A program made the translations under genes and the position numbers. Shown in pieces: positions 7,509 through 58,380 of a stretch of 64,000 nucleotides of DNA (its first letter is position 1; every line of letters begins with the position of its first letter). Source of the stretch: Heterotrichella gracilis. Taxonomy: Eukaryota > Sar > Xanthophyceae > Tribonematales > Xanthonemataceae. Where the stretch lies: assembly GCA_032358255.1 (NCBI GenBank), contig JAULBX010011101.1, positions 1-64,000 of the forward strand, in the 5' to 3' direction. The notes under the pieces were generated by a model, which was not told the DNA's origin, did not search any database, and saw nothing but the letters and a program-made list of their open reading frames with translations.

Positions 7509-9371
7509 CTAGAGGTCAACCCTGTACTTTGCAGACAGGATGGTGTTGTGCAGCAAGGCAGCCACCGTCATCGGTCCCACACCACCAGGCACGGGAGTGA
7601 TCGCACCCGCCACCTGCGCCACCTCATCAAACGCCACATCCCCAACCACATGGTAGGGTCTCGGGGTGCAGCCGTCGTCCGGCGCGGGCCCGTCGGGGCC
7701 CTCCGGCAAAATGTTGATCCCCACATCCACCACCACAGCCCCCGGCTTGACCCATTCTCGCCGCACGAGGTGCGGGTACCCCACCGCCACAACCAGGATG
7801 TCGGCGGTTCGGGTGATTTGCATCAGGTCCACATGCGGAAATTCAGTGGCGGCGGTGGCATCTCGAGGTTCACCCAGCATGGGAAGCGGCGGGTAGGGAA
7901 ACCCGCCGGTGGCGGTGCCTTGGGCGGCGTCATTGGGTTGGGATGGTGGGGCAGGCTGCGAATCCCGCACGCCGTCGGCATCGGCATCGGCATCGGCGTT
8001 GGGTGGCGATGATGGCGCATCGGCGGCGCCGGGGCGCGGGACATGCTGCGCCGCTTCCCGCGGCATGGCGATGTGCGCGCTGGTCGGGCTGTACGCCGGA
8101 GCGCCCCCGCCCCAATCACCCCGCCGCACGCCCGCATCCCCATCCTCACCCCCATCCCCGCCCGCCGGCAAGCCGTCCCAGGGTTCGCACCCCGCGTCGT
8201 CCGGAAAAAGCCCGTTGTAGGCGATGCGGTGGCACACGGTGACAGCGGCGGCGCCGGCGTTGCGCAGGAGCATGGAGAGCGGCGTGCCGACGATGTTGGA
8301 GTCGCCGAGGACGACGGCGGTGCGGCCCCGCAGGCGCACCCCTGAGCGCTTGAGCAGCTCCATGCATCCCAGGGCTGTGCAGGGGATGAAGCGCGGGGTG
8401 CGGCCGCGCATCAGGATGTGGCTGCAACATGCACAGAAATTGAGTTCCTTTGGTGATTTCTCCAAGCATCACGGGTTTTACATCGTTTTGTGGGTGTTTC
8501 TAGTTTGTTGAAGATGCACGCCTGATTGCTCAAGCCGCTCCATGCATCCCAGGACAGTGCAGGGGATGTAGGGTTTTGGGTTTCGGGAAGCTAGGGCAGT
8601 GCAGGGCAGGTAGCGCATAGAGTTTTGGGTTTCGGGTAGTTAGTGGTGTGCAGGCGAGGTAGCGCATAGGGTTTAGGGCTTAGGGCTTTCCCCTCAGGAT
8701 TCTTCTCCGCACGCACCCAAAATTGAGCGGGTGGAAGCCATCCACATCCTTGGTAGGGTCGAAGCAGGCGGTGAGCGCATCCTGGTCCAGGTGAGCAGGC
8801 AAGGGGAGCTGCACCAGCAGACCATCGAGGGCAGGGTCAGCGCACGCACGCGCCACAGCAGCCTCCAGCTCAGCTTGGGAGACGCCTTCGGGGAACATGT
8901 GCAGCTCGGCTTTTACGCCCACCTGTGAACGAGGGTTGTATGGGCTCAGCGTAGGGTTTAATGGGCCCTGTGGACGTGGGTGTTGTGCGTTTGCTGCAGG
9001 GTTCTTTGTAGGTCTGGGAGTGGGGTTTGAGGTTTGAGTGCGCGCGCCACAGCAGCTCTGATTGGGGGACCCCTTCAAGGAACATATGCAGCTCGGCTTT
9101 CACGCCTGAGGACGAGGGTTTGCTGGGATGTTGTAGGGTTTGAAGCAGGGTTTAGACTGTGGACTGGGTTTGCGTGTAGGGTTTTTCACCTTTTGGCAGG
9201 CCTCCAGCTTGCGCGCCACATACAGCTGGGAGTCGCTGCGGCTGCCCACAAGCAGCACCGATAGTCCAGGTGACCTCCCCAGCTTCTCTTTCAATCCCAC
9301 CACTTCCCTTGCCATCTCATCCTGCCACTGATCCGCCACCGCGCGCCCATTCAGCACCAGGGCAGTTGAGC
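7509..9371 (-). CDS. folD: Methylene-THF dehydrogenase/cyclohydrolase (5' end missing)
   Basis: Interconverts 5,10-methylene-, 5,10-methenyl- and 10-formyl-tetrahydrofolate, supplying one-carbon units. Minus-strand exons are 9371-9190, 8922-8717 and 8421-7509, and phases match at both junctions. Visible family features are [14 protein letters not shown], the catalytic-lysine motif [17 protein letters not shown], the [10 protein letters not shown] segment, the NAD(P)-binding [11 protein letters not shown] and the C-terminal signature [16 protein letters not shown]. Oddly, about 120 extra residues rich in Gly, Ala, Asp and Pro lie between VTVCHR and [10 protein letters not shown], encoded without interruption and including a (GCATCG)n stretch. 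The first exon, with the start codon and any targeting peptide, was not found. It should lie above 9371. Decayed copies of exon starts sit in both introns. Confidence 0.93.
8527..8571 (-). repeat. Shadow copy of folD last-exon segment
   Basis: Resembles the coding bases at about 8347-8390 (the shared core is CCATGCATCCCAGG). It lies in the preceding intron and is followed by GGGTTTTGGGTTTCGGG. Two further degenerate copies of intron sequence (GCAGGGCAGGTAGCGCATAG-like) follow. Confidence 0.7.
9041..9109 (-). repeat. Shadow copy of folD middle-exon start
   Basis: Matches the first part of the exon at 8922-8717 (real copy about 8847-8922), including GCAGCTCGGCTTTCACGCC on the plus strand. It is interrupted and out of frame, and sits upstream of the true acceptor. 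Confidence 0.8.
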
Positions 9372-11166: not shown

Positions 11167-14100
11167 TCAGTACCTCCTCTGTGCGGTGGACAGCAGCACC
11201 ATCCCCTTCTTCCCCTTCTTCCCACCACCACCGCCATCCTCCCCTTGCCCCCCCCTCCCCGCCGGTGGGGCAACAGGAGCAGCGGCCAGGCGCTGTGCGA
11301 GGGTGGTGGGGGTGGGGGCTGCAGCGGTGGGGGCAGCGCCCCATGCACCGGTGGGGGCTGTGGCTGTGGTGGTGGGGTTGGGGCCCCATGCTCCTGAGGG
11401 GTGGGGTGTGGATCCTGCACCAGAGGGATTGCAAAACCACCATTCAGGAAGGGATTCATGCAACAGAGAACAAGTATCTCTTTGCTACTATTCCTCGTGA
11501 ACCAATGCACCTGTATCAAGTTGAACAGTTTGAAAAGATGCATGTAATTCCTTTATTTTATCAACTCTGTACCTTTCATATAATATTTTTTGAACTATGC
11601 AAATTAATCATTGTCTTTAATCAATTATTAAATTATTATGTGGAGCCTCACCTCCACTACTGGACAGTGCAGGCCCCCACGCCGTCGCGACCCCTCCGCC
11701 CCCTGCCCCCGCCCCCAGCACAGGCCCAGTAGCCGCATACCCCATCCTAGTCATGGCTGCAAATGACACCCCTTGCTGGGGCATGGCGGCGGGATCGGCC
11801 ACCGGGGCAGTTTCTTCTCCTTCCTCCCCTTCCTCTGCTGCCTGCTGCCAGGTGGCAATAGATGCAGCGGGCAGGGGCATGGCCTGCAAGGGAGAAGGGA
11901 TTGATTTGATGACAGACATTTGGTAATTTCTACGGTAATAGGATACTCGTTCTGCAACAACACCCAGCCAGCCCTTGTTGCCATATTTCAAAGTGCAAGT
12001 TCTGTCTCATTATCCACTGCAACCACCCGCTCCGCCTCGTATGCATGCGATGGACCACATCCCTCCACGCCGCCGCCACCACCACCACCACCACCACCAC
12101 TTACCCCCCAACCTCCTCTGCGCAACCAAATATCCTTCTCACACCCACCCACCCACCACCTCACCTGTAACTCGGCAGCCGAGGGCCCCACCCCCGCCGC
12201 GGCAGCTGCCCGCTCGGCTTCCGCCTCCCTATGGGCGCGATGCACCGCCTCCCTTGCCCGCTGCTCCCGCTTCAGTGCGCGCTGGGACAGCTCCTCGGCA
12301 AATGGCGCCATGGCTGAGGGGGGCAGGGTGTTGCTCAGGTCAAGCTCGCACAGCTGGAACGTGCCTGCGGCGGGGGTAAAAGTCGTATGGTTTTTGGGGT
12401 TTTGCCTTAAGGTTTCCTGTGGCTGTGGTCACGCTCAACAGCTGGAGCGTGCCTACACAGATGGGGTAAAAAGCTGGTGGGTTTTTGGATTTTTTTCTTG
12501 GGTTTCGTGTGAGCGACTCACCACCTACATAATGCAAGGTTTAGGATGAGTGATAGGGCTTTACAGGCGGGTTTAACACCTTTTCTTTTCTAGGGTTTAG
12601 GCATCTCCTTAGGGTTTTGTCTCACCTGTGAGTGGCAGGTGCGACAGCAGCCTGAGCCTGCGCCGGGTGGCCTCCTCCTGCACCATCTCCCCGATCAAGG
12701 GTTCCAAGATTTCCCTTTAGGGTTTTAGAATTTCCCATTAGGGTTTTAGAGTTATTGCCCCACCTGTCAGTGGCAGGTGCGACAGGGGCCTGAGCCTGCG
12801 CCGGGTGGCCTCCTCCTGCACCATATGGGTGAGCTCCAGCAGGGGGGCAGTGATAGTGGGGGGGCAGGCGGGGAAGGAGCCCGCGTGCGCCAGCAGCATG
12901 CGCGTGCACAGGGGGCTCAGGAAGAGCATCTGGCCGTCCCGGGACTGGTAGAAGTAGTAGTCGGATGCGGGCGCGGGGGCGGAGGCGTCAGGTGGGGAGG
13001 TGCCTGGACGCAGAGGGGGAGAGGTGGGGGGTGAGGTTTGGGGCCAGACACGCATGGCGGGTGGGCACATGCGGGTGCATGTGTGGCTTTAACTTGGAGT
13101 GTGTGCGTGCACAGGGGGTGAGGAAGATCATCTGGCTATCCCAGGACTGGTAGAAATAGTAATTGAATGCGGGCGCGAGGGCGGAGGCATCTGGCGGTGA
13201 GGTGCCTGGATGGTGGTTGGGGGTGGGAGGGATGTTGGTGGTGTATGTGGTGAAGGGAGGGGGGGGGGGGGCTACATGCGGGCATGTGGTGGTCACGGTG
13301 TGTGGGGTGAGACAACGTGGTTGTGAGTGGGGTGGGGTTGGTGTACAATGTACTCATGTGGTCAACATATACTGGCGCGTGTGCACGCAGCCATGGAAAT
13401 GCTACAGACACACTCTGGAAACCCCAAACCCTAACCCAAACCCTAGACCTACCCAGCAGCGCGCTCCCGCCCCCATCTGGACTAGCTGAAACCACCCCCT
13501 CGCCCCCCTGCCTTGGCGGCACGGGTATGGGCACACCACCACCACCACCAGCCCCCTCCCCCTCCCCCTCCTCGTCCGAAAACACCTGCTCGTAATTGAC
13601 CAACCCCCGCGGCGGCCGTCCGGTAGGGCTGTGTGGTGGTGGTGCGGGTGGTGGTGGTGGTGTGGGGGGGAGGGAGGGGTACTCCTCCCTGTGCCTGGCT
13701 GCTGCTGCTGCCTGGTCCCGCTCCTGGGTGGCTGTGGTGACGGCTGCGGTGGTCACCTGGGGGTGGGGGTTGGGGGTGGGTGGGGGCGGAGGATCGTAGG
13801 TGGGTGGTGTGTGTCGGATGGGACGTGGAGGTGGATAAACGGGTTGCAGCTCGTGGCGCTGCAGCTGCCAACACTGCACCCATACCCTAAAATGAAACAA
13901 CTTCACATATAGTCTATGCCCAGCTGCTTATCAGTGATTGCCCATCCCGTCATTGCCCATCCCCGCCACCCCCCCCGCACACCTTCTTCACAGCAGCAGC
14001 AGCAGCAGCCCCCGCCGCCTCCGCCCCCCCCTGCCCCCCTCCAAAGGGATCGCCAGGGGCCGCCATGTGGCGCTCCCTCCGCTCAGCCCATGCCCTGGCC

Positions 14101-16695
14101 CTCTCAGCCAATGAGTCCATCGCTGCGTAGATGGAGGGGGCTTCGATTGCGGCATCCCAGCCGCCCTCGGATGTCACCTGGGGATGGTGGGCGCCGAGTG
14201 GGGATTATGGAGATGACACATGGTGATTTGCAGGGGTGGTTTAGTATATGCAACCCATATCCGTGCTAGCCCTTAGCAAAGCATCAGCAACAGAATGCTG
14301 GGATGTGCAATGCAGCCCTTGCCAGCGTGTGTTCCTTGTTTTGCTGCGCAACGCTCACCTTGATCGGTACTTTATTTCCATCAATTATATCATTACTATT
14401 TTTTATTTTTATTGTTTTTGTTGTTGCCTACACACCCATGCAAAATCATACCTTTGCGGCGTATCCCGCCAGCTGGCGAGCCGCCTCCTCCCACAGGGGG
14501 GTAGCGTCACACACTGTAGAGAACTTGGCAAATATGTTGACAGCAACTCCCCCTGCGGCCCTCCTCTCTTCTCCCTCCCTTGCTCCCTCCCCTTCGTCCC
14601 CTTTCCCACCCCACGGCCCCGCAGCGCGTGGGGAGGAGGGGGGGTGCTTTCCCCCACTCCCCTTGGCGGTAGGTGAAGGGGAGGGAACAACCTCCTCGGG
14701 TATGATGCTCCCCTTGGGGCGCTTCAGCAGCGTGAAAGTGAGCTCGCTTCCCACCTGCGCATGCGTTGGTGGGAGTGAGATGTGTCACTTGGGGGGCGAC
14801 TTTATATGTCCCGAGTGTGGGTGAAATGGTGGGTGCACCAGTGGTAGGTGTTCCATGCCAGTGCCAGGGTTACCACTATGGTTTTGGATAGGTATTGGTT
14901 CGGAATTCCGTCGCACCTGAGCTGACATGATATGGCGGGCAAGCACAAGGCATGCAGGGTTTTGGCTAGGGGTTCTTTACCGTAATTGCCAGGGTTCCGC
15001 CTAGGATACACCCCTGCATGCGCCGCTGTGGTGCATGTGTGCTGGATGTGTATCAGGTGTTTAGAAACTGCCTTATAAGAATACTTCCGTACCTGCGCTG
15101 ATGTGCCGGCTAGGGTTTTGCCTATAAATTAGATCCGCTCATGTGCTAGGGTTTTAGATGGGGTTCTAGGTAGGTTTTAAATAGGGTTTCCCGTCGCACA
15201 TCCGCTGGAGTGATGTGGTGTGCATGCACCAGTCGCAGCTCCCGGGCCACAATGGGCTGGCAGCACAGTGGGCAAGGGGAGCATGGGCGCAGCTCCTTAG
15301 GGTTTTGAGCTACAGCTAGGGTTTTGGGTAGATAATCCTAAATGCTCTTTATTCTGTGGCTCAAATTGGGATTGCAGGTAGGGTTTCCCGCCGCACCTCC
15401 GCAGGAGTGATGTGGTGTGCGTGCACCAGTCGCAGCTCCCTTGCCACGATGGGCTGGTAGCACAGGGGGCAAGGGGAGCATGCGCGCAGCTGTGCCCCCC
15501 CATTCCTGCTCATGAGGTGGTGCATGATGGAGGGGAATGAGAACACGTGGCCGCAGGGGGTGATCTGGGGGCACAGGGGGGGAGACTCCAGGGAGATAGG
15601 GCAGCGCAGAGGGGAGGAAACCAGCATCTCGACCTGTAAGGAGGGGAAGGAGGATGGGGTCACATGGCCAATGAATAAAAAAGTAGATTCTTTGGCCTAC
15701 GATAGATAAGTAGTTTCCGTTTTGTTCAGAAACATGGAGGTGAAAAGTCGCAAAGGATTAATAAAAGGGGAACAACATCCCAGATTCTGTAGAAACGCTG
15801 TACCCACTGTGCCCAACCCGCACCACATCATCCCAATGCGCGTCCACTCTCTACCGCGTCCGACACAAATAACTTGAATTTTGGCTTGCAGGAGACCCTG
15901 ACCGCATACCGTACCCATGGGGCTGAAACAGGATGCAAAACCCTAGCCCTGAACCCTAAGCTCCCCCTCACCTGCACCACATCGTCCCAGTCCAGCATCA
16001 TGTCAGCGTCAGACGCATACTTGCCGCTGTCCACCGCATCCGAAACCAGGAACCTGAAATTGGCTTGCAGGAACTTATTGCGGTCATAGGGTGCGGGGCG
16101 GGGACCCTGGCGGCGGGCGGGGCCCCCACCGCTCCCCCCACCGCCGGCGCCGCGTCCTCGACCCTGTGAGTGAGGGTGAGAAGGGTGGTTGGGTGGGTGC
16201 TTGTTGCAAGTGATGTATGAACCAACACCCGAGGCTGCACTGGGGGCTGCATGCGGTGGTGGTGGTGGTGGTTTTATGGGGGGAGCCCTGTGGTGCAGCA
16301 AAGCAGGAAGGGCAATGGCATGGTGGCAGCACATACGATAATCCCCGCCTTTCATATGCTTTGCCCCGCAATTGAAATTGCATTCACCCCCCTGGCAGCT
16401 CAGGCCAAATGGCATTGGGGTATGGCAACCGCACGCATGCGTCGCCCTTGGTGCATTGCGTACACCACACATGAATTGAACCAGGCACACAGCGCAAAAG
16501 TGCACTTTAAAATGCACAACACCTGTTTCCTTCACGCACCCTGGCTCCAGAATTGAAGTTCAGGAGGAAGTTTGCATTCATCCCCCTGGTGGGGCTGCGC
16601 CCATATGCCAGGCCCGCCTCGGCACCCTCCCCTGCCCCCGGATCCGCATGCGAGTGTGGAGCTACATCGCGCGGCGCGCCCCTGTCGTGCTGCAC
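11167..16695 (-). CDS. RNF10: RNF10-type RING finger protein (5' end partial)
   Basis: Homologue of the RNF10/plant RING-protein family. Minus-strand exons: from about 16695 to 16540, 16163-15972, 15633-15397, 14754-14452, 14177-13983, 13873-13453, 13003-12764, 12364-12165, 11883-11652 and 11414-11167. All phases close. Family blocks appear in order: MNANFLLNF; YDRNKFLQANFRFLVSDA; the RING region with CGH and CPLC; GSELTFTLLKRPKGS; SDYYFYQSRDGQMLFLSP; RLRPLSHLPLTG; FQLCELDLSNTLPP; and the C-terminal VLLSTAQRRY. Long Ala/Gly/Pro-rich insertions enlarge it. Three RING zinc ligands are serine instead of cysteine (CPIS, FSFPS), so E3 activity is doubtful. The start codon is unresolved. Shadow copies of several exons lie in its introns. 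Confidence 0.9.
12424..12500 (-). repeat. Shadow copy of RNF10 exon 12364-12165 start
   Basis: Copies the acceptor side of the exon plus flanking intron. CAACAGCTGGAGCGTGCCTA corresponds to CACAGCTGGAACGTGCCTG near the true acceptor. It lies upstream in the preceding intron. Confidence 0.75.
12622..12705 (-). repeat. Shadow copy of RNF10 exon 13003-12764 end
   Basis: Matches about 70 bases around the true donor at 12763, including CTGAGCCTGCGCCGGGTGGC. It is separated from the exon by TTAGGGTTTT-type sequence. Confidence 0.9.
13105..13208 (-). repeat. Shadow copy of RNF10 exon 13003-12764 start
   Basis: About 100 bases resembling the start of that exon. It still encodes YYFYQSWDSQMIFLTP, compared with YYFYQSRDGQMLFLSP in the real exon, and retains an acceptor-like CAG. 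It then diverges and frameshifts. Confidence 0.9.
15185..15297 (-). repeat. Shadow copy of RNF10 RING-exon end
   Basis: Around 110 bases closely match 15385-15491, covering the last third of the RING exon and its donor. The copy has TCCGCTGGAG where the exon has TCCGCAGGAG. It lies downstream in the intron, with TTTAGGG-like motifs between the two. Confidence 0.9.
15848..15895 (-). repeat. Shadow copy of RNF10 exon 16163-15972 interior
   Basis: Encodes KFKLFVSDAVESG where the exon encodes NFRFLVSDAVDSG, and shares TTGGCTTGCAGGA on the plus strand. It lies in the downstream intron. Confidence 0.75.
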
Positions 16696-16696
16696 G

Positions 16697-19416: not shown

Positions 19417-22400
19417 GAGCCCTCGCCAAGCAGTGACCTACAGCGACAGGTTCATCCCCTCGAGGGCGGTGGCGTCGAGGCTCAACTTCTCCCTACTTGA
19501 ACGGGAAGCAGTGGCTTCAGAGTCACGCGCGCCAACAGACCGAGAGGTGGGTTGATGCAAAACACCACCTGGGCATGGGTGCCGTCCTGGACATCCGACC
19601 ATGGGCAGTGGGTGCTCTATTGGCCGCTTGCATGGTGTGTACGCCAACTGAAACCAAGCCTTACCCGTTGGGGATGGTGTGTGCACACAGCTTCCAAGGC
19701 TGAAGCTGGTTGACAAACCCCTCTTGTTTTCACTTCTTCAGGAGTCAAACCTTGCCTACAACCAGTTGCTCCGAACGGAACTGCTGGGTGTCACCCCCCC
19801 TGGCGCGCTCTCACCGGACAAAGCGCACCTAGGCCCGGACATGCTGCGCTCGCCAGCCAGGTAAGGAAAGTTCACACGGCTGTTTAGGGTTTAGGGTAAT
19901 CACTAGGTTGGACAACTGCACACCACATTTTAGGGTTTATGGTTGCCTGCCAGACTGGGCAATCACACGTCACTCAGCTGCATCATCGGCTGACGCCTGC
20001 AACAGGGGGTGTAAACGTACTACAAACTCAAGTTGAGAAGAAATGCAATCTGAAAAAACAAGCAGCAATACTTTTATCCCTTGTGCTGCAGCCCCAGCCG
20101 CAACATTTTCCGGTACAAGTCTGGGGACCGAGACAGTCCCACGGGGGGCCTGCACCTGGAGTCGCCCTACAGCGTGTCGCCCATGGGCAGCGACAACCCA
20201 GCAGCGGCGCCATCGTTGAGCCCCAAACGGGTGCCGCGCAAGATACCGCGCTCGCCCTTCAAGGTACCCTGAACTTTGACCCCTAAGGATATCGCGCTGG
20301 TTTTCAAATGTGCCCTAAACCCTAGGCCCCTAAAGGTACCGCGCTGGCTCTTGATGCTACCCAAAACCCCTGAACGTGCCCGTGCCCCCTCCTCGCCCTT
20401 CAAGGTACCCTAAAGTGCAGAGATACCTCGCGCGCCCTAGTGGATGCACCCTAAAACCCGCGAGCCCTTGATTTACCCTCCCGCCCCTCCCCCTGCCAGC
20501 ACTGTTGGGCCTTCTCAATCCAGCATTGTCAGCACTGTACAGGACGCCACAGCCATTCGTATGTACACAAACCACGTGTACAGAGTAGGGTTAAAAGTTT
20601 AGGGTATTGTCACTCCCCTGCTGTCGATATAGCGTCTATCTGTATGTGCCCACCCCTCACCCACCCCACCTCCCACACCTTACGGCAAGTTTTCCAGGTG
20701 CGGGACGCCCCCTCCCTGCAAGACGACTTTTATAATAACCTGGTGGACTGGTCAAACCAAAACCCTAAACCGTAAGCCTCCCACTCCCTCCCAGGTTCTG
20801 GATGCTCCCTCCCTACAAGACGACTTCTACCTCAATCTGGTGGACTGGTCGAGCCAAAATGTGTTGGCGGTGGGGCTGGGCAGCTGCGTGTACCTGTGGT
20901 CGGCATGCACATCGAAGGTGAGCGGGAATTTTAGGGTTTCTCTAGCTCCATGTACCCTGTGGTCGGCATGCACGTCAATAGTGATGAGGGGTGACAAAAG
21001 CCAGGAGGGTTTAGGGTATTTCTAACTGCATATTGTCTGTCTGCTAATAAAAGGTGACCAACGCTTACCAAACCCTACATTAAACCCTGTGCAGGTGACC
21101 AAGCTCACCAAGCCTTGGTCCAGAGGACAGTGCGTGCATTTCCCCCCCTTTAAACCCTAGACAAACCCTAATCTGACCTGCGCAGGTGTTCAAGCTCAAC
21201 GATTTTGGCCTGGAGGACAGCGCGTGCATTTCAACACCCTCCCCCTCTGTTAGAACCCTAGACAAACCCTATTCCTTACCTGCGCAGGTGACCAAGCTCA
21301 CAGACTTTGGCCCGGAGGACAGCGCGTGCTCCGTGGCCTGGTCGGCGCGCGGCAGCTTCCTATCCATCGGCCTCAACAACGGGGACACGCAAATCTGGGA
21401 CGCTGCCAAGGGGAAAATGTGAGTGGGATGTTGGATGGTGTTCAGGCTGGCCTTGCCATGCTGTGCCTGCTTGGCGGGAAGCAAGTGCAAATGGTTGCGG
21501 GGTTTAGGGTTAGGGTTACGGATGGCGGCGCTGTGTTCGGGGGCAGGTGGTGGGTGATGTGCGCATATGGGCACCCTACCTAGGCCACACGCATGCTCAG
21601 CTCAGGCAATTAGATTAGGGCGAGGGTTAGCATTACTATGATTAGGGTCATCCCCTGCTGACACTTTCCCTGTATGGGTGCAGGCTGCGGGTGATGAAGG
21701 GCCACCGGGCGCGCGTGGGCACCCTTGCCTGGGGCGCGCATGTGCTCAGCTCCGGCAGCCGTGACCGCACCATCCTGCACCACGACGTGCGCGTGCCCGA
21801 GCCCTTTGTCATGAAGTTGACGGGGCACAGATCTGAGGTGGGGCGCAGCAGCATGGGATGAGGTGGAAGGGGGCGGGGGTGGTTCTGGGTGGTCGTCCAA
21901 ATTTAGTGTGCAATTCAAAACCGTACTCAAAATGCCTTGGCTATTGGACTGGGGTGAGGCATAGCCAGGCATGTTAATCAGGCTCATGAACTGGAAATGC
22001 AGATGCTTGCTCAAAATGCATCCCCCCACACCATAGGTGTGCAGCTTCAAATGGTCTCCTTGCGATCGTTGATTGACCACTGGCGTGCCCATGCCATTAT
22101 ATGCATTGCACCCTCCACCCCCTGCATCTTCTGACGCCCCCTTACTCATGCACAAACACAGTGGTCCCTCCACCCGCCACTCCTCGCCATCAATCTATTA
22201 TATTCATATCAGTGATATTATTCTATACTTATTTGATTAATTATTTATGCTAGGTTTTTGCCCCAACACTCCATAGCCATAAACTGGCCACTCCACTCCA
22301 CCCCACCCACCCCCCACCCCCCAGGTGTGCGGCCTCAAGTGGTCCCCCGACGACCGCCAGCTGGCGTCTGGCGGCAACGACAACAACCTGTTCATATGGA

Positions 22401-31737: not shown

Positions 31738-31758
31738 AACCCTAAACCCTAAATCAGC

Positions 31759-47115: not shown

Positions 47116-50100
47116 TTACTCCACGCCCTCAATCTTGTCCTCCACGTCAGTGTACAGCTGGCGCAGCCTGTCGATCTGGTCGGGGCTGGCCTCCCAGTAG
47201 CCCCTGCCGTTGGCCTCCAGGAAGGTGGCCACAAGCTTCCTGCAAAACGGGGAGGGAAAGGCGCAGTCAGCAAAAGGGCGAAACAGGGGTTGTGAGGGTG
47301 TATGCATGGCTGCTACCAGGAGGACAGGGTGAGCGGACTTGCATGACAAGACACTGCCCAAGCACTAAGTTCCAAAGCCTTGGCAAACCCCCACCCATAC
47401 ATAAACGCATTCCCACATGTGGTGCCCGACTCGAAGCAACCACCACCACAATCAATCCACCATCACCCGCCACAAAACCCCACCTGAACGAGCTGGAGTT
47501 GGTGTCCATCAGCTTAAACCCTGAACCCTAAACGCACCACCTGAAGCTTCCTATGAGTTGGCGTTGGGGTCCTTAAGCCTAAACCCTAAACCCTACAGGC
47601 ACCCACCTGAACGAGTTGGGGTTTGTGTCCATGAGCCTCTGCTGCATCTCCTCATCCTCGATGAACGTGGAGTTTGCCTCGTCATACACCCAGTTGTCAA
47701 CCTCGCCAGAGGTGGCTGACCAGCCCATGGTGTTGGTCATGCGCTTCTGGATCTCGCGCACGCCCTCGTAGCCGGAGGACAGCATGCCCTCGTACCTGAG
47801 GCAGTGGGGATTTGGCTGAGAATTTAAAGGGGTAATATTGGGTGCTAGGGGACCTAAATATTAGGGACCTACACATTCTCTGAGAGGAGTTTGTACAAAC
47901 ATGGATACTGCCCATGGTGTATGCACATATATACAACACACTCTATTCCTATGATTGCGCATACACAACACACCCACAACCCTAACCATGCCCTGGCCTA
48001 GGGTTCCCACGCACCACTTGGGGTTGAGCAGCTTGGTGTGCGCGTCCAGCCTCACGGTCTTGCCCAGGCTGCGCACCATCTACCCTAACACACCCTACCA
48101 GAGGGTCTCAACACCCTATAAACCCCACCCTAGTATAAACCCCATACCCCAGACAAACCCTAGCCAAAAATTTCCCACGCACCACTTGGGGTTGAGCAGC
48201 TTGGTGCGCGCGTCCAGGCGAACAGTCTCGCCCAGGCTGCGCACTTGCGCGTTGGCGGTGGTGGTGTCCGCAATGAACGACGCGGGCTTCTTCCCGTCCC
48301 GCCTCAGCCCCGCAACCAGCTTGGTGGGGTCGGAGTCAAAGTAGTGGGACACGTCGGTGAGCGAGATTTCCGAGGAGTCCAGGTTCTGGAAGGTGACGTC
48401 CACGGTCTTCATAGCAGCCACAAACACGTCGCGGTTCATCTCGCCGCCAGCGCCGGGCCTGTGAGTGGCGGGTTGGGGGTGGGTGAGGCAGCAAAGAGCG
48501 TGGGATGGGGGGATGGAGGTTAAGTGCGGCAAGCAGCTGTATGGCCGTGGGGGTGGGGGTGCAGCCGCTATATACCATGCGCCCTAGATCGCCAAAGGAT
48601 GCACTCTATGACATCGTGCAATGCGTTACACGTCCTGAAGTCCCATCCTCCCGTGTTACCCAGCCCCGCAGCTCACCTGTCGCTGTTGAATGCGAATGAC
48701 TTGCGCGACACATACATCTCCTGCAGCTGGCTCTCATCGCTCCAGGAGCTGTTCTCCACCGCCAGGTTGACGTTGGAGGAGTAGGAGCCCGAGCTGTTTG
48801 AGAACACGCGGGTGGCGGCCTCGCGCAGGGAGACACCCATCTCCTCAGCCTGGGTGGGGAAAGGAGGGTTTGGGTTAGGGTTTTGGGAGGGGGTTGGTCA
48901 GGTTTTGAGAAGGCGCGGTCGGAGCCCACCCTTTCCGCCCAGAGAGGGCTTGTGGACAATGTATTTCCATGTTCAGTGTTAGGGCCCAGCAGCCAACTAT
49001 CTCGTGCTTGTGCAGATTATTTAGGTCTAGCGTTTAGGTCAGCACTCAACCCATGATAAAGCTTTGCTCCGTGGCCAGTTGTCAGGGTTCAAACCAATGG
49101 ACATTTCCAGAGCCCACCCGCTTACTCCATGCCTAGGGTTTAGGGTTACCGTATAACCCACCTGCTGCCTGGCGTGCTTGCGCACGTAGTTCATGTCCTC
49201 CGGCTCATCCAGCTCCGCCGCCATCTTCACAGCCCGATCCAGCAGGTTCATCTGGTTGACAAACAGGTCCCGGAAGACACCGGAGCAGTTGACCACCACG
49301 TCGATGCGGGGCCTGCCCAGCTCCTCCAGGGGGATGACCTCAAGCTTGTTCACGCGGCCGAGCGCGTCGGGAACGGGCCGGATGCCGATCATCATCAGCA
49401 CCTGCGGGGGTGGGGAGGTAAGGTGAGTGATGAGGGAGGGGGAGGCATGCGTGCATCCTGAGAACCGTGGTGGAGGCGTGTGTGTGCAGTGGGTGGCGGG
49501 AGGAGGGGATTTTTTATGTTGCATGGGTGCGTGCAAGTCACCACAGCGCATGAGACCCACTGATTGAACCTGACAATAAGGTACCACACGCCGCTTCCAG
49601 GGCCTGGGAAAACAGCCCCACAGGCACCAAGGAACTGGGCGGAGTCTCACCTGTGCGAGCGACTCCCCGTAGGTCTTGATGTTGTCTGTCCCCCACAGCA
49701 CCAGCGCGATGGTTTCGGGGTACGCCCCGTTGTTCTCCACGCGCTGCCTCTCAATCAGGCGGTCCACCACCACCAGCGCGGATGCGACAGCGGCTGTGGT
49801 GGGGATTGACTGGGGATCCAGTGCGTGGATGTTCTTCCCCGTGGGGAGCACGCCGGGGTTGCGGATGGGGTCGCCACCTGCGGTGGTGGGTGGGTGAGGA
49901 ATGGGGGGTGGGGATGGGATGGTTAGCCTCCTCAGCTAGACACCCGCTGGCTGAAAATCGCTGTTACAAAACTGCCACTTGGGTCAAAGCCCTGAACTTT
50001 AGACCCTCCTTATCAGTCACATGCTTGCCATCCAGACCCTGCTTCATTGCACCCAGCCCACACACTGGCAGGAAACCCTGGCATAAACCCTTAAACCCTT

Positions 50101-53100
50101 GCTCCTCACCTGGGCCTGGCTCCACATACTCTCCGTTCAGCGCCTGCTTCAGGGCGCCTAGCTCGTTGTCCTTCACAATCTGGCAAGGGGGGAAAGGGAG
50201 CAGGGGTCAGCAAGGGGAGGTCACAATACCCACCATATCAAATCCACCATGTGAACAACATACATCAACATCAAAGGTGACAAAAGCAATCGAAGACCAG
50301 ACGTGTAAACAACGTGACGCAGCGCTGTCCAGGGTTTCTAGGGTTTTGTGCAGGGCTTCATATTGGATTCTTGTAGTATAAGCCTCTCACCTGCTCCAGG
50401 CAGAACTCCAGGTATGTGAACAGGGTCACCAGCTCCTGCCTGTTGGCGCTCTTGAACTGGGTACCCTGCAGCGCCTTCACCCAGGGCTCAACGCCCAGGC
50501 CTGCGGGGGAGAGGAGGGCAGGGTTAGGGCTTGAAAAGGCATGGGTAGGGTCCGACAGGCTTGACATGGCTTGGGACTGGCACTGGGATGAGGCACAGCC
50601 AGCAACATGTTGCAAAGCTGGATGGCAGCAGAGAAGCAGCACGGCAGCTGGCAGAATGTGTGGAGGATTTAGACGTAGCTTTAGGGTTTAACCCAAAGGA
50701 GGATGAATGCGCCACCCACCAGTGAACTTGGCCAGCTGGTCGAACACATTGCTGCCGATGCGCCCGTCTGCGCCTGTGCGCCGCTTGACAAACTCTCCCA
50801 CAGCCACGCGCGAGGCACTGGTGATCTCCTGGAGAAGCTCAACCTCCGCCAGAATACCCTGCAGACATTAGGGTTTACGGCATTAGGATTCGGGACTAGG
50901 GTACAGAATGGCAGGTTTCAGGCGTGATTTTAGGGTGAGGTGCTTTGGCTTTCTTTTTAGCAGAGCCACGATTCTCAGAGATTTTCCGTGACAGCGTGCG
51001 AGTTCCAAGCATCCTTTCACCGCCAACAACAGTTGAAGGGCCATGTGATTGAAACCCAGTCCCAAGCTGCACTAGAAAATAGATAGTGCTGAGTCGCACC
51101 TTGTTGTTGTTGGCATAGATCTCCTCGATCGAGCGCCCTATGGCCTTTGCCAGGATGGAGGGCAGGCCCTTGATGGGGGGGTTGTTGTCGGGGCGGTCGA
51201 TTTCAGCGATGTTGACCAGGGTGGCCACCGCCTCGTCCGCGGTGGGGGGGCAGCCAACCACGTGCAGCCCGCAGGGGAGGAGCCTGGGGGAAGAGGGGAG
51301 GAGAAGGTTAAATTTAAAACACGTAGGATTGGGGTAGGTGGGGGACATGCTGGAGTGGGGTGGGTGCAGGTATTGGTTGGAGCAAAGCATGCCAGCAGAT
51401 TGTCCTGCATGCACCCGCCCCCCAGGATGGTCAGCAGTACCCTTCACTTGACCCTACACACGTGTGTATATATACCCTTCCCTTGACAGTAAAACCCCAT
51501 CTTAGTGGTTCTGAAACCCCCACCCCGCGCCTCAACTCAATCTCCATGAGCTTGCAGTACACGTTGCCCACCACCAGGTCCCTAAACCCTGCCCCCAAAC
51601 TCTCAACACCCCCAAAAACACCCTCAAAAATCCATTAACAACCCACACCCAACAAACCCATCGCCACTGCCCAGCCAGGCACGCCCCTTGACAGAAACAG
51701 AACGCACCTGGACTCAATCTCCATGAGCTTGCGGTACACATTGCCCACCACCAAATCCCTCTGCTCGGTGTCCAAGTCCTTGGCAAGGCCATCCGGCAGC
51801 TTCACGTCCTTGTCAAGGTTACACTGGCGGGCAGTGGCCATGATGGAGTCGCAGATGGCGGGGCCGCGGCCGCCCTCGCGCAGGGACTGGTAGGAGGAGA
51901 TGAGCTCCTTCAGCTCCTGTGAAGGGGGGGAGGGTTGGCAAGTGGGTGAGCGTGGTGCAGAATCAGTGTTTAGGGTTTAGGAGAGCGTGTGGCAGTCCCT
52001 ATGGCAGTGCAAACCCTAGGAGTTACACCCAATCAATATAACCCAGGCCATACAACCGCATAGAATGTGCCAGCGGTGGATTCCCTCGTACAACCCCGCG
52101 TTCTTAACAGTGGGCCAAAAAATAAGGGTTTAGGGCTTCACACTTCAGGGTTTTCGCCACCCACCTTGAGCCCCTTGTACAGCCCCGCGTTCTCTGCAGG
52201 GGGGGTGAGGTAGGAGATGGTGTTGGCGTAGGAGCGGCGCTTGGCGATGGTGGCCTCGGAGGGGTTGTTGGCCGCGTAGTAGTAGATGTTGGGGATGGAC
52301 CCGATGAGGGAGTCTGGGTAGCACACCCCCGACATGCCCACCTGCTTGCCAGGCATGAACTCCAGGGAGCCGTGGGTGCCAAAGTGGAGCACCGCGTCGG
52401 CCTGCGGGGGAGGGTTTTCAATTAGGGTTCTTGTTAGGGTTTGGAGTGAAGGGTTGTGGTGAGGGTAAGGGTTAAAACTCCAAGGAGCCGTGGGTGCCAA
52501 AGTGGAGCACCGCGTCGGCCTGCGGGGGAGGGTTTTGGTTAGGGTTCTTGTTAGGGTTTTGTAGTGCAGAATCGTGGTGAGGATAGGGCAGGAACTCCAG
52601 AGGCTTCAGGCATGCTGGCAATAGGGCAGTAGAGGCCGTTGTGAGGGGAGGTTGTCCATAAGAACAGCAGATGCATGGCGTCATCCTCGTACACAAAGGT
52701 GGGGTGGGCTGCACCCCATGAACACACCCCACAACCCCAAAAAATTACCCTAAGATACCCTAGAAAAAACCCTCCTCACCTCGAAGATCTTCTCCAGGTA
52801 GGTGTAGTAGGCGGCAAAGCCGTGGTGGGGGGAGGCGGAGCGCGAGAACAGCAGGCGCATGGGGTCGCCCTCATACCCAAAGGTGGGCTGCACGCCGATG
52901 AACACATTTCCAAAGGTCTTGCCGTACACCAGCAGCTGCTGGCCGTTGGAGTTGAGGTTGCCTGGCGGCTTGCCCCAGTTCTCCTCCAGGGCCTCGGAGT
53001 ACTCGCACAGGCGCTGGTACTCGGGCACGTCCATCCTGGGGGTTGGAGGGTGGGGGGTGAGGGGGGAGAATGAGGGATATTGGAGCTGGTAGCTTGAGCT

Positions 53101-56100
53101 CAGTTTGGCTCATTTGGTGCGGGCGGTGGGTGAGGAGGAGAGGCAGTAAAAGATGGTTTTGGCGCCAAAAGCAGGTGGCGTGAATATTTTGAATGATCCG
53201 CAAATGGCAGAGAGTGGGCAGTGGGGGCGATGATGCAAGGCAGCACTAGGGCAAAACCCTAGCAAGGGTAAAGGCATGCTCCTCACCCGTATGGCACGCT
53301 GAGCTCGGTGCTTGATCACACTCTTCATCGAATCACCCAAAACCCAAAACCCTATACTCCACGCCATGACCCTACATTCCTCACCTGTATGCCACGTTGA
53401 GCTCCGTGCTGTTGAAGCGCGCCTCCTCGTTGTTGATGACGCTCTTCATCAGCTCGTCCTCGTTGGCGGGCAGGGTGCCCACGTCGTAGCCGTCGTCCTG
53501 GAGGTCCTTCAGAACCCTAGGGGAAAGGGGAAGGGTTGGTTAGGGTTTAGGGTTTTGCAGGGTGCCCATACAAACAGCTGTCGACCTGGAGGTCCTTATA
53601 AACCCCAAGAGGGAGTGCAACTACTCAGAGTGAGAGATTTAGGAACAGGAAGGGCATCGCGCAAGGCAGAAAGCTTTGATGGATTCCTAAACCCAAAAAA
53701 TATTTGAGCTCCCGCTCGAACACATGTAAGCATTCAACACATGGCAACCCACCTGTAGATGGACCCAAACACGTTGAGGTAGGCGGCGGTGCCCACGTTG
53801 CCCTTGTCTGGCGGGAAGCTGAACACAGTGATGGCAAGCTTCTACAGCTTTTTAAAACACCCACTTCTAAACTCCACTAGGGTTTTACACACCCTATTCC
53901 ACCCATTTCCAAACCCTCCTTGCTACCCTAGTACCCACCTGTAGATGGACCCAAACACATTCAGGTAGGCAGCAGTGCCCACGTTGCCCTTGTCTGGCGG
54001 GAAACTGAACACAGTGATGGCCAGCTTCTTGAGCGCGGTGGGCTTCTTGGCCAGCTTGGCCCAGTTGATGGCGCGCTTGCACAGCGACTCGATCCGGTCG
54101 GGGAGCGAGTGCGACTTGCCGGTGTTGGAGTCGCGGCCCGCAAACACGATGGGCTCGATGCCGCCGTCAAGCTCGGGCAGGGCGACCTGCGGGATGGGTG
54201 ATGGCGGGTTCAGGAGGGGGCTCCAGTAGAATATGGCGTGGAATTAGTCGGAGGATGAGTGGGTGGGGGTGTGAGGGGCTTGTGGTGAAGCTATTATATC
54301 CCCATGGCTGATGGGGGATAGGAAGGGGGCCTCACAACCAGGGCAGGCATCAAAATAACCCTCGCCAAGGGCATCTCTCCCGCACACAGTTTCAAAACCC
54401 TCCCAAAGGGATTTTGAATGTAGGATTTAAGGATTCCCATCCCCACAATCTTACCTGCAGCGCCACCTGCACGGGGTGCACCCCCAGCTCCGACTCCAGT
54501 CAAGGGTTTTCAGGGTTAGGGTTTTGGGGTTAGGGTTCCCGTCCTCACCTGCAGCGCCACCTGCACGGGGTGCACTCCCAGCTCCGACTCCAGCCACTCC
54601 TCAGTGGTCTGGAACACCAGGGGGAGCGACACCAGGTAGGGCACGTTCAGACCCTTGAGGGCGTCCACAGCCTTGGGGGCATCCTGGCGGGCGGGGCCAC
54701 CCACCAGCGCAAAGCCTGTGAGTGGGGTTAGGGTTTAGGGTTTATAGATTAGGCATGTGACTATGCGTATGCAGTGTTGCCATTTTCTTTGTATACACTT
54801 TGGTCATATGATATATCTTATTGATAAATATTTAGTTGCAAGTTTCTCCGCAGGGTCACATCAGCGTGCAGATGCTGCACATATGCACATGGCGCGAGCG
54901 TGCAACATGCAAAACATACAACGCATGTCCATCCCTACCAGTGAGTGACACCACGCAGTCCACAAAGCTCTTGCCAGAGCCCAGGGGGTCGTAAAAGTAC
55001 TTCTTCACGGGCAGGGAGAAGTCCAGGCCGCCAGCAAACACGGGGATGACGCGCGCACCCCTGGCCTCAAGCTCAGACACCACACCTGCAGAGGGGTAGG
55101 GTTTAGGGTTTAGGGTTTTCTTGTAGGTTTTTTTTTGGCAGAGTAGAATTGAGTACTCCCCTTTATGTAGGTATGTAAGGGTTGCTTTGCGTAATAGGGC
55201 TGACTGCAGGATACAAGCCCATGGTTTGCGACCGGGACAGCCTTGAATTACAAGGGCACGGAGTAAAATCACCCATATGCATTGCCACGGCGACCCTTCC
55301 GCCACCCACACCCCATACCCCAGCATGCCGGCTGCTAGCTTCGGCATTTGAATCCCCACCCCACCGCTGGCTATCTGTCCACCATTCCCAATCATGAGGC
55401 TGACAGTTGATGCACCTTATCCGGCGCTGCAGCGCTTATGATCAAACCTGGGACAGCCGCACTGCGGCACCCTACCCACAGCACCACGCCAACCCCCTTT
55501 GCACATCCACCCAGAACGGTCCACCTGTTTGTGTGTGCAACCCCCCCATCTCCTGTCCCATCCCAGGAAAATGAACGCGGTATCGCTGTCCACCCATGCA
55601 TGAATGCTTGGATTGTAGGGCAGTGCCTCTTAAAATCTCGCACTTTAGGCCTCCCCTCCCAAAACCACCCCGCACCCACCTGCGTAGTGGCCCTCATCTC
55701 CGGTCACTAGGTGGGAGCGCTGCAGCACTAGGCCGATGATGGGGGCGTCCTTGGGCAGCTGGATGTCCCTGCGTGTGTCGTACCAGTTGAGGTACTCCTT
55801 CAAGTCCTCGTACATGGTGGGCGCCACCGGGTGCCAGATGCCGGTCTCGGGGAACAGCTCGGGCTCCTTGGTGTCGAATTTGGACCCTGGAGGGGTGGGA
55901 AAGGGGAGGTGGATTAGGTATGATGGCTCCAGAGACCCTAGATTGTGCAATTGCTGAACCCTGGAACCCTAAACCCTTGCTGAACCCTATAGTGCGCCAA
56001 ACTCGCCATTGTGCCGATTCACCATCCGGCGCATTCCAGCGGTTCCCACGCGACCACCCGCCCGCCCAAATGTATGCGGCCCCAGGCCTTTGCCCTTAAA

Positions 56101-58380
56101 AATCAGGGTCAGCTGCAGGAGTTCAGGGTTGAAGGTCGCTGCTTACCCTTGAGCTCCGGCACGTAGGCCTCTGTCAGGCTGAGCAGCAGGTTCTCAAGGA
56201 TTCACGGTTTATACCTTAGGTTCTATGCAGGGTTTTCAGCGCTTACCCTTGAGCTCCGGCACGTATGCCTCGGTCAGGCTGAGCAGCAGGTTCTCCAGGT
56301 TGTCGAAGTTGCCCACCAGCCGCAGGGGCTTAAGGGTTCAGGGTCTAGGGTTTCAAAGTACCATCCTTTTGGCTCCGGCAAAAGCACCACCGCGCGCCTC
56401 AGCAGCAGGGGATCAAGGTGAAGGGTTTTTGCAGGGTTTGAGCGCTCACCCTTGAGCTCCGGCACGTATGCCTCTGTCAAGCTGAGCAGCAGGTTCTCCA
56501 GGTTGTCGGAGTTGCCCCCCAGCCAGTACTGCAGGCTCTGCACAAAATTGCGCGCGTCCTGCGCCTTGTCGCTGGGCAGGTACTTGAGCACCTTGGGCAG
56601 GGTGCGCACAAGCTTGAGCAGGCCCTCCTCAAAGTTGTCGTTGTTCTTGCGCGCGTTCTTCATGAACTGCAGGATCCCCGGTGAAATCGTAAGTTTGAGG
56701 GCAACTTCCAGTACAATCAGCAGGACTGTGATCACAATACGGGTTGCAGGACGGACTCCAGTAAATTGTGGGTTGAAGGCGAACCTCCGGTACACCTCAA
56801 CCCTCTTTGATTCCTCAACTCCAATGTCCTCAAAGCTGCTTTGCAACCCTAGTAAAGCCCTAAACCCTACCTCGCCGATCATGGACTTGCTCTGCCCCAG
56901 CTGGCTCATCTCGAAGGTCCCCAGCTTGTTGAGACGCATGACCGCGGGCATGGATGGGAACACCAGGCAGGCGTCCAGGGTGTCGCGGCAGGGCTCAACT
57001 GCGGCGGTGATCTGCAGGGGGATGCGGGTGGGTGAATTTAGTGTGGGTGTGGCGTGGTGTGGTAGGGGGAGGGGTGAAAGGGTGTTGTGTGTCTGGAGGT
57101 GGTGCAAGGTGCAGAGTGGTACTGGACTGGTGCGGTCATGCGGCTCTACTAGATGCACTTGGCGACCACCTGCCGCGTCTGTTGTGTAAAGTCTTTGGCA
57201 TATTCTACAGCACTGCAAGTCCACGATGATTGCGACGTGCATCCTCCTTGCAGGTACAGCCTCCAGCCACTACCAACCCCCTTCCACCTGCTCACCCATC
57301 CACCCAGATGCTACAACATTCTGCTGATTCCCTCACACCCCCATGCACCCAGATCCCTGCCTTTGCACCCAGCCGATCCCTGCTATAAAACCCAACTTTC
57401 TCTTTTTCGCACCTTCTCAGCCAGCTCCTCGATGAAGATGAGCGAGCCGATGAAGATGTTGGCGTCGGCCACATCCTTCTGGAACATCTCGTAGTTGCTG
57501 GCATCGCGCAGCTCCTCCAGGAGGTACCCCACGATCTCGAAGCACGCCGTCTTGTTGGTGGCGTTGATGTTCTTCACGGCCTGGTCGAGGGAGGACTGGT
57601 ACTGTGCCTCCAGCACGACGTACACCACCTTGACCACCTTGCGGCCATTGGCGACGGGCACCACGCGACGGGTCTCGGGGTTGGTGCTTGTGAACAGACC
57701 GCCACCTGGCACAAAGCAGGAGACAGGAAGGGTTCACGGTGTATGCTGCGTAGTTTGGGAGCCTTAGTGTGCTGGAGAGGGGAGTGTTGTCAGCAAACGG
57801 CCAACTTTTGGTTTGCATCAGATGTGAAGGGACCCATCAATGTAAGTGGTTTGTGAGCAAATGAGGCGAATATGAGGGACGCCAGCAGCCAATTCAGCTA
57901 CTTATAAGCCTGTAGTTGGAGGCTGTGGGATGCAATTGGGTGCAGGGCTTCCAGTGTTCATCGACGGACTAGATACGTGATGGTGAATATCTTACCTGGG
58001 CCACCACCCAAGTCCACCTTCACTGGCTTTGGTCCAGCTGCCACCATAGTAACAACCTACGGGGAACAGTAACAGTGGTTGACAAAGTTCGTAAACTCAT
58101 ACAAAAAAAGCAGCAACAGAACTGCAGGAAAGAAGCCCTCACCTTGCGTGTTTGGTTGACGCCATTGGACAGGCTAGCCCTCTGCAAGCAACAGGATTAC
58201 AGTTAGACCAGCGCAACAAGCAGCAGAAGGTCATAACGCAGAAAGCCCACGAGTCCTCTGCCCCACCTTTCCAGAAAAGGGGTTGCTGCGGCGCGCCACA
58301 CGGCGAGATGTGGGTGCAATCAGCTGCCTAAAGCTGCCAGTGCTGGTCTCTGCCTCGAGGGGCACCCTGTGCGACGCCAT
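47116..58380 (-). CDS. CHLH: Magnesium-chelatase subunit H, chloroplast
   Basis: Porphyrin-binding large subunit that, with CHLI and CHLD, inserts Mg2+ into protoporphyrin IX, the first committed step of chlorophyll synthesis. It acts in the plastid. Twenty-four exons on the minus strand: 58380-58267, 58181-58143, 58056-57996, 57705-57413, 57011-56871, 56666-56450, 55886-55680, 55085-54939, 54715-54549, 54186-53939, 53516-53385, 53035-52780, 52401-52165, 51916-51708, 51283-51100, 50858-50720, 50500-50391, 50179-50110, 49877-49651, 49401-49162, 48849-48677, 48458-48183, 47795-47607 and 47239-47116. They total 4,200 bases, 1,399 residues, and all phases close. The N-terminal about 60 residues are Ser/Arg-rich, as in a transit peptide. 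Conserved blocks include [59 protein letters not shown] and [16 protein letters not shown], ending [12 protein letters not shown]. Many introns carry shadow exons. Confidence 0.98.
47480..47578 (-). repeat. Two shadow copies of CHLH exon 23 end
   Basis: CACCTGAACGAGCTGGAGTT near 47483 and a weaker copy near 47540 resemble the donor region at 47603-47640. Both run into CCCTAAACCCTAAA-type sequence. Confidence 0.88.
48005..48085 (-). repeat. Shadow copy of CHLH exon 22 end
   Basis: About 75 bases nearly identical to 48177-48247, including ACCACTTGGGGTTGAGCAGC and the GT donor. Confidence 0.95.
51536..51590 (-). repeat. Shadow copy of CHLH exon 14 end
   Basis: CAATCTCCATGAGCTTGCAG and TTGCCCACCACCA match 51714-51760, then the copy ends in CCCTAAACCCTG. 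Confidence 0.93.
52470..52560 (-). repeat. Shadow copy of CHLH exon 13 start
   Basis: GGAGCCGTGGGTGCCAAAGT followed by GGAGCACCGCGTCGGCCTG and the intron after it duplicate 52360-52440 almost exactly, with a period of about 122 bp. Confidence 0.95.
52645..52732 (-). repeat. Shadow copy of CHLH exon 12 interior
   Basis: GAACAGCAGATGCATGGCGTC, CACAAAGGTGGG and CTGCAC align with 52828-52905, a part of the exon that contains no splice site. Confidence 0.8.
53281..53335 (-). repeat. Shadow copy of CHLH exon 11 end
   Basis: GTATGGCACGCTGAGCTCGG matches GTATGCCACGTTGAGCTCCG at 53388, but about 15 bases of the exon are missing from the copy. Confidence 0.85.
53548..53600 (-). repeat. Shadow copy of CHLH exon 11 start
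   Basis: CTGTCGACCTGGAGGTCCTT matches CCGTCGTCCTGGAGGTCCTT near 53490. It lies upstream of the true acceptor. Confidence 0.85.
53752..53846 (-). repeat. Near-intact shadow copy of CHLH exon 10 end
   Basis: About 90 bases differ from 53937-54030 at only a few positions, mostly synonymous. The donor and the reading frame for [18 protein letters not shown] are intact. Confidence 0.95.
54450..54510 (-). repeat. Shadow copy of CHLH exon 9 end
   Basis: GCAGCGCCACCTGCACGGGG is identical in the exon and the copy. The copy has a stronger donor (CAG then GTAAG) and is followed by AGGGTTTTCAGGGTTAGGG. Confidence 0.95.
55088..55125 (-). repeat. Interstitial telomere-like repeat in CHLH intron
   Basis: AGGGTTTAGGGTTTAGGGTT directly beside the exon 8 acceptor. 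Confidence 0.85.
56140..56355 (-). repeat. Two shadow copies of CHLH exon 6 end
   Basis: ACCCTTGAGCTCCGGCACGT recurs at about 56147 and 56246 besides the true copy at 56449. The longer copy spans about 90 bases and ends in TTAAGGGTTCAGGGTCTAGG. Confidence 0.95.

Follow-up and report, generated by a model that had tools for sequence, protein, structure and literature searches.

Introns of the alga Heterotrichella gracilis hold decaying copies of neighbouring exon ends, often beside telomere repeats

The window and its exon-end copies

Here we describe a stretch of 64,000 nucleotides of the alga Heterotrichella gracilis (the window, bases 1-64000 of contig C113 in an assembly of 68.5 Mb and 903 contigs), together with a sample of 18 other GC-normal stretches of 10 kb each (180 kb), one of which, L021, directly follows the window on the same contig. 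The scope is one genome, of which about 244 kb was examined, and the gene models are ab initio; they were self-trained, comprise 44 genes with 329 introns (73 in the window, 256 in the sample), and their splice signals converge on CAG/GTGAG ... TGCAG/G. Among the predicted proteins, matches to Pfam or to solved structures confirm FolD, CDC20/CDH1, S-adenosylmethionine synthetase, a HAD hydrolase (HDHD2-like), an AN1/ZFAND2-like protein, a papain protease and ChlH; a membrane protein gene has no Pfam match, and Rfam and tRNA scans of the window returned no matches. The names RNF10 and HDHD2 are carried over from the original prediction, and we take the former gene to be putatively RNF10-like. 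Seven low-GC loci (70 kb) and genes with less than 300 nt of predicted coding sequence were left out before counting. The low-GC contigs of the assembly (0.33-0.37) are C1 (894 kb; L002 and L022-L026) and C100 (L004), and the C1 stretch that was examined (L023) carries dense intron-free open reading frames, bacterial in look and presumably Bacteroidota-like; the assembly holds bacterial companions, so that 68.5 Mb somewhat overstates the size of the algal genome.

Copies of exon ends recur along the window, and we give each with its source, identity and period. FolD (minus strand) has an acceptor-side intron copy at 8516-8568 (of exon 8336-8388; 85%, period 180 bp) and another of exon end plus acceptor at 9040-9127 (of 8846-8944; 85%, 187 bp). 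The RNF10-like gene (minus strand) has acceptor-crossing copies at 12438-12511 (of 12350-12421; 76%, 90 bp) and 13102-13231 (of 12899-13029; 81%, 202 bp), donor-crossing copies at 12618-12686 (of 12756-12824; 93%, 138 bp, with a AAACCCTAA-rich spacer) and 15190-15294 (of 15387-15491; 90%, 197 bp), and a copy of exon interior at 15844-15893 (of 16024-16072; 80%, 180 bp). CDH1/FZR (plus strand) carries two donor-crossing copies at 20326-20414 (of 20233-20274 and 20251-20273; 74% and 96%, 93 and 141 bp), a donor-side copy at 20956-20984 (of 20893-20921; 86%, 63 bp), an acceptor-side copy at 21534-21608 (of 21671-21757; 74%, 149 bp), and acceptor-crossing copies at 20694-20759 (of 20791-20856; 80%, 97 bp) and 22741-22804 (of 22851-22913; 88%, 109 bp), the last with telomere repeats in both orientations in its spacer; a tandem array at 21086-21329 (TRF period 102, 2.5 copies) runs to the real acceptor and exon start (21288). 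The HDHD2-like gene (plus strand) has acceptor-crossing copies at 28902-28994 (of 29058-29150; 90%, 156 bp) and 29663-29698 (of 29764-29799; 92%, 101 bp). In the AN1 gene (minus strand), an acceptor-crossing copy lies at 32538-32618 (of 32407-32485; 82%, 133 bp), a donor-crossing one at 32895-32941 (of 32990-33036; 83%, 95 bp), and the end of the last exon, 31802-31829, is repeated in the flank at 31711-31738 with no splice site (96%, 91 bp).

The membrane protein gene (minus strand) has a copy at 41638-41663 (of 41689-41714; 92%, 51 bp), donor-crossing copies at 42331-42431 (of 42487-42587; 83%, 156 bp) and 43214-43254 (of 43300-43340; 76%, 86 bp), two successive copies of the acceptor region 42674-42781 at 42862-43131 (88% and 75%, 188 and 373 bp), and, for the exon from 43938, a donor-side array of about three exon-end copies at 43741-43972 (91%, 93 bp). 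CHLH (minus strand) bears donor-crossing copies at 47479-47513 (of 47602-47636; 89%, 123 bp), 51526-51583 (of 51703-51760; 88%, 177 bp) and 53280-53312 (of 53378-53410; 88%, 98 bp), as well as others that were first predicted as exons, at 48004-48076 (of 48172-48244; 92%, 168 bp), 53747-53848 (of 53933-54034; 92%, 186 bp), 54450-54502 (of 54544-54596; 94%, 94 bp) and 56141-56199 (of 56241-56299; 95%, 100 bp). Elsewhere in CHLH are an acceptor-crossing copy at 53557-53620 (of 53470-53532; 79%, 88 bp), a nearly full acceptor-crossing tandem at 52476-52588 (of 52358-52470; 89% overall, 118 bp, gap 5), a copy of exon interior at 52635-52717 (of 52819-52896; 79%, 184 bp), and further copies at 52083-52114 (of 52172-52203; 81%, 89 bp) and 56218-56321 (of 56422-56524; 91%, 203 bp). 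The last of these is still an exon (56247-56328) in the models, yet lies in a stretch without a match in the ChlH structure 4zhj; at least one probable copy was in this way counted as exon.

Two further arrays were also seen: tandem units of about 215 bp, with some 72-87% similarity to one another, that occupy part of a short predicted gene and the DNA following it (3246-3982), and a three-copy 67-bp array, unlike a nearby predicted exon, in an intron of the S-adenosylmethionine synthetase gene (26471-26668).

The gene list of the original prediction holds for seven genes and fails for the papain protease, in which no exon-intron pair reaches a score of 100 and only exon-exon pairs in the repetitive tail (38751-39059) do. 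Likewise, the pattern is present in the range first proposed for it, 8527-56450, but is not confined there, being found across the sampled genome, if unevenly: five of the 18 sample loci (L005, L006, L013, L015 and L021) lack exon-intron alignments, and L007 and L011 have nine each.

Number, source and anatomy of the copies

An ungapped scan for local repeats 20-1500 bp apart, with low-complexity sequence and the telomere motif masked, gave, for the window, 49 direct repeats at a score of at least 100, no inverted ones and none in a single shuffled version; the corresponding counts were 118, 13 and 0 in the other stretches (180 kb) and 8, 0 and 0 in the low-GC stretches (70 kb). At this threshold, 36 of the 56 chained pairs in the window have one member in an intron and the other in an exon or across an exon edge into its intron. 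Across window and sample, the 183 chained pairs have a median period of 122 bp (30-373 bp, 5-95%), a median matched length of 59 (27-134) and identities of 0.72-0.96 (5-95%). Counted by intron, a copy of a flanking exon with an alignment score of at least 100 is present in 25/73 introns of the window and 51/256 of the sample, and the controls (window, sample) yield 0 and 1 for reverse complements, 1 and 0 for other introns and 0 and 0 for shuffled sequence; at a score of at least 70, there are 32 and 71 such introns and at most 4 and 14 in controls. About one intron in five of this alga holds a decaying copy of a neighbouring exon end. These counts bear out the original claim that introns contain copies of their own flanking exons, and its figures of more than 30 cases, sizes of 25-110 bases and periods of roughly 50-290 bp are correct.

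The origin of the copies is strictly local. When exons up to eight away were compared, the flanking exon was the source in 86/656 comparisons, the next exon in 2/570 and exons two to eight away in 1/2,246, which is 3/2,816 for all exons one to eight further than the flanking one. Young copies are common (41 exon-intron pairs are at least 90% identical), identities form a continuum and the source is almost exclusively the flanking exon, which supports the view, already put forward in the original prediction, that local duplication is continuing.

A typical copy takes in 30-110 nt of an exon, from its end (donor side) or its beginning (acceptor side), along with the splice site, and is placed in the neighbouring intron in the same direction, mostly 60-300 bp away. 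Copies on both strands and on both sides of introns had been described, and among the 75 best alignments (low-complexity ones, with dust above 1.2, excluded) 36 are donor-side and 39 acceptor-side; 60 of the 75 come within 3 nt of the junction, in keeping with the remark that copies usually span the splice site. They are direct, local, same-strand and junction-crossing, as in tandem duplication of the exon-intron boundary; such a duplication would also carry the intron part of the unit, and its spacer would match the sequence beyond the copy. Of the 60 copies that come within 6 nt of the junction, 48 have the copied GT or AG, which indicates that the template was unspliced DNA or pre-mRNA; copying from spliced RNA is disfavoured, since the copies keep splice sites.

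Similarity is lopsided about the junction: exon-side identity is about 0.85 across the nearest 19 nt (0.78-0.92 by position), and intron-side identity, in ungapped comparison, falls to about 0.55 within some 6-16 nt and is at background level from about 17 nt on. Exon and intron are repeated together in clean tandem arrays at 21086-21329, 43741-43972 and 52358-52588 of the window and in L003, L012 and L014, and in other loci the spacer is unrelated. The median intron length is 398 nt with copies versus 251 nt without.

Placement of the copies and their telomere repeats

One account of these observations is local tandem duplication that strikes uniformly, with the bias to exon edges arising from selection and from a constrained partner that keeps a pair recognisable for longer. 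It predicts the strictly local, junction-crossing, neutrally decaying copies that are seen, and the several arrays built of full tandem units of exon and intron fit it as well. We set it against a simulation of random tandem duplication on the same gene structures, in which message-preserving changes were kept and substitutions and indels added (four settings, five replicates each; pairs less than 60 bp apart excluded from the comparison). The four settings gave exon-intron, intron-intron and intergenic pairs in the ratio 1 : 1.2-1.4 : 0.95-1.1, and even heavy block turnover brought exon-intron pairs to at most 1.2 times the intron-intron and 1.8 times the intergenic ones, whereas the observed counts are 113:24:3, of which the exon-intron count is favoured by the removal of 17 predicted exons from the models (4 in the window, 13 in the sample), each a duplicate of an adjacent exon, since exon-exon pairs thereby become exon-intron pairs. 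Among pairs at least 90% identical, the counts are 41:6:3, and the homology-confirmed genes of the window have 26 exon-intron versus 2 intron-intron pairs. L021, which has only one predicted gene, holds two of the three intergenic pairs, and these may stem from genes missing from the models. Copies also occur at coding ends next to intergenic DNA (10 exon-intergenic versus 3 intergenic-intergenic pairs), which places the focus on coding boundaries and not strictly on splicing. The pair classes thus disfavour uniform neutral duplication, which we regard as unlikely; nor does it predict the side-specific telomere repeats described below.

TTTAGGG is the telomere repeat of this genome: 101 overlapping exact 35-mers of it were found, and on seven contigs they begin, in telomere orientation, among the first 7 bases. 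The repeat in the introns is the alga's own telomere repeat, as in telomerase-type insertions at breaks. Its density, counted as the 8-mers TAGGGTTT/AAACCCTA per kb, is 3.65 in introns of the window and 1.40 in those of the sample, against 0.52 and 0.40 in intergenic DNA and 0.06 and 0.18 in exons. The motif is present in 42/66 introns with copies versus 59/263 without, and when length is controlled, 25.9 (sd 3.3) copy introns would be expected to hold it, a shortfall from 42 that none of 5000 permutations made good. Copy-rich genes are also motif-rich genes (Spearman 0.58 over 37 genes with at least three introns).

The association is specific to the copied side. Among introns 220 nt or longer, the share of bases within 80 nt of the junction that telomere repeats cover is 17.7% on the donor side when that side is copied and 7.0% when it is not, and 13.6% versus 3.4% on the acceptor side, the uncopied figures being those of the other side of copy-bearing introns; in introns without copies, coverage is 3.1% on the donor and 4.6% on the acceptor side (again at least 220 nt), versus 1.8% in mid-intron; the repeats are closer to junctions there as well, a point against the break-repair account below. 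In 50 spacers between copy and source, 638 bases are covered by telomere repeat, compared with 305 (sd 49) at random places in the same introns (0/2000 reached the observed value). At L008 2271-2566, a unit of about 135 bp is duplicated at 93% identity, and the joint carries 27 nt of filler, most of it telomeric. The original prediction did not connect the copies with these accompanying repeats, which are the best clue to their origin.

The orientation of neighbouring repeats is only suggestive: G-then-C versus C-then-G neighbours number 6:6 within 20 nt, 13:6 within 40, 19:9 within 80 and 26:18 within 150, so that convergent orientation is a weak sign of telomerase. Along introns, telomere runs are TTTAGGG-sense in 85 cases and CCCTAAA in 77 in the first third, and 31 and 96 in the last third; CCCTAAA near acceptors could reflect a preference for pyrimidine tracts.

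Possible origins and known systems

Copies and telomere scraps together look like the scar of a recurring DNA-break repair that lengthens introns. From these marks we infer breaks, fill-in, telomerase and a reason for the favouring of coding boundaries, and, judged on sequence, the balance seems to us even for the following course of events. Breaks, or opposed pairs of nicks, would recur in some genes near the ends of coding sequence, and staggered ends would be filled in before joining, duplicating some 30-130 bp of flank, so that the exon end and its splice site come to be repeated within the intron. TTTAGGG or other filler would often be added at the joint, in the way that telomerase acts on breaks. 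The message would stay intact through one copy of the splice site, while the other becomes intron and decays like non-coding DNA, and further slippage could make arrays. The targeting of coding boundaries might stem from transcription-linked breaks or nicks at exon edges, or from conversion that preserves such pairs. Of the accounts that embrace both marks, the flank copies and the telomere filler, break repair is the simplest. Small tandem duplications from fill-in at staggered breaks were reportedly described by Vaughn and Bennetzen in 2014 and by Schiml in 2016.

Gene conversion between an exon and its copy would maintain likeness in the exon-like part and let the intron part diverge; copies would then seem younger than their true age and outlast intron-intron pairs. 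Indeed, similarity within the copies is far higher in the exon part than in the intron part, which we assessed with a z-scored test after the null for splice-anchored intron alignment (600 pairs) proved too permissive. The intron part is recognisable (z>3) in 29% of 48 pairs versus 53-86% in simulations; among young copies (exon identity at least 0.88, testable spacer) it has z>3 in 43% and z of at most 3 in 13/23, compared with z>3 in 98-100% of simulated young pairs without block turnover and 73-97% with it. The spacer of the CHLH copy at 53747-53848, for example, is not recognisably copied (z about 0). With so many young copies at z of at most 3, fill-in alone is insufficient, and filler, re-breaking or exon-limited gene conversion is needed. 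Three readings fit: frequent filler in the spacer, rebuilding of the introns that surround copies, or conversion that has kept the exon-like part similar. Mismatches within copies are mildly clustered (mean z 0.77, se 0.18, 62 alignments), as conversion would have it. In addition, two light-harvesting paralogues, L027 (C84) and L028 (C217), differ at only 3/266 nt of exon 2, and the introns that follow (153 and 196 nt) barely beat shuffled sequence (score 92 versus 70.5, sd 12.7), which is consistent with exon-limited conversion or homogenisation in this genome. However, these genes belong to a special, conserved family, and conversion neither makes copies nor accounts for the telomere repeats or for the small number of intergenic pairs; as the main explanation, it strikes us as quite improbable. 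A third light-harvesting gene (L029, C211) has, by eye, exon-end copies of its own on acceptor and donor sides, at sense positions 474-540, 800-1000 and 1770-1950.

It had also been proposed that the copies serve as alternative exons, decoy splice sites or new introns, and retention for function could extend to enhancers. Four CHLH copies keep frame and splice sites well enough to have been predicted first as exons, 13 exons of the sample likewise duplicate a neighbour and were intact enough for the gene finder to use, and copies with an identity of at least 0.86 show a somewhat stronger third-position bias (mismatch by codon position 0.069/0.069/0.157) than the whole set (0.183/0.157/0.255). 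Against this, 152/184 indels are not multiples of three and 16/75 copies contain in-frame stops, so that the frame and codon constraint expected of a functional alternative exon is not seen in the copies. Within the part of the alignment listed, three of the four CHLH repeat peptides are insertions or unaligned relative to ChlH 4zhj, the fourth lying outside that part. The case for decoys is similarly weak, as the copied splice dinucleotides are retained about as often as identity predicts (GT in 22/28, 20.0 expected; AG in 26/32, 21.9 expected). The copies decay like non-coding DNA, freed from coding constraint, and we consider it very unlikely that function maintains them. As for new introns, classic AGGT gain, in which the 3' end of an intron repeats the end of the upstream exon, fits at most 1 of the 75 best alignments, and we set it aside. 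The sole candidate for intron gain by tandem duplication is a 103-nt predicted intron at L003 2224-2326, whose 3' end matches the end of the upstream exon.

Mobile introns (introners) or another transposable element could account for a motif shared intron-wide, but near-identical intron copies in many genes were not found: the two copy-bearing introns searched against the genome (simple repeats and very common words skipped), those with the RNF10-like copy at 12618-12686 and the CHLH copy at 53747-53848, match only themselves and their own exon, and the 329 introns share just 5 between-intron matches, four of them of 33-39 nt, so that we give such elements scarcely any credence. Tandem copies can be mis-assembled, yet pair members differ by 4-28% and the same pattern appears in many genes and contigs, which makes an assembly artefact the least credible of all.

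Returning to break repair, a broader claim is that a telomere-linked pathway of this kind, preferring the boundary between coding sequence and intron, is a main source of intron sequence in the alga, repeatedly duplicating exon ends and adding telomere repeats, with the surplus turned into intron; we advance this only tentatively, as a possibility. The question of what makes introns longer, and what supplies their sequence, is an old one, and few systems allow the events to be counted. In this alga, the events are frequent, age-graded, local and often telomere-tagged, so that rate, break position and repair pathway become measurable, and if the focus on coding boundaries is mutational, it would reveal an unknown link between gene structure and DNA breakage.

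Each step of the proposed mechanism is known elsewhere, and in the literature searched, which was covered in part, we found no report of exon-end copies combined with telomere repeats; the comparisons below are limited to the portions of each source at hand. CST-Pol alpha fill-in at break ends produces small tandem duplications, which resemble the algal copies in being short, local, direct copies of the break flank, and CST-Pol alpha is itself a telomere complex; those duplications follow induced breaks in human and mouse cells, and the portions at hand report no exon-end focus or telomere filler (PMC8355091). Telomere repeats are likewise inserted at double-strand breaks in rodents and primates as interstitial repeats with changes to the flank, sometimes with duplication (6/130 rodent and 4/25 primate loci); there, however, only a minority of loci show duplication and introns receive no special mention, whereas in the alga repeats and exon-end copies occur on the same side (PMC2246262). 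Direct repeats close to splice sites also lie near intron borders and have been ascribed to break repair, but they average 11.4 bp and are read as marks of intron insertion, while the algal matches have a median of 59 bp and comprise exon plus splice site (PMC11782384). In potato RdRp, a genomic duplicate across the splice junction changes intron-exon structure and reuses the parental splicing signals, in a report that also describes the Rogers model of intron gain by AGGT tandem duplication (PMC4974935). In both potato and alga, the duplicate crosses the intron-exon boundary; in potato, this concerns one gene and a new spliced intron, whereas in the alga the event recurs across the sampled genome, and the extra copy is mostly absorbed by an existing intron, with telomere repeats alongside (PMC4974935).
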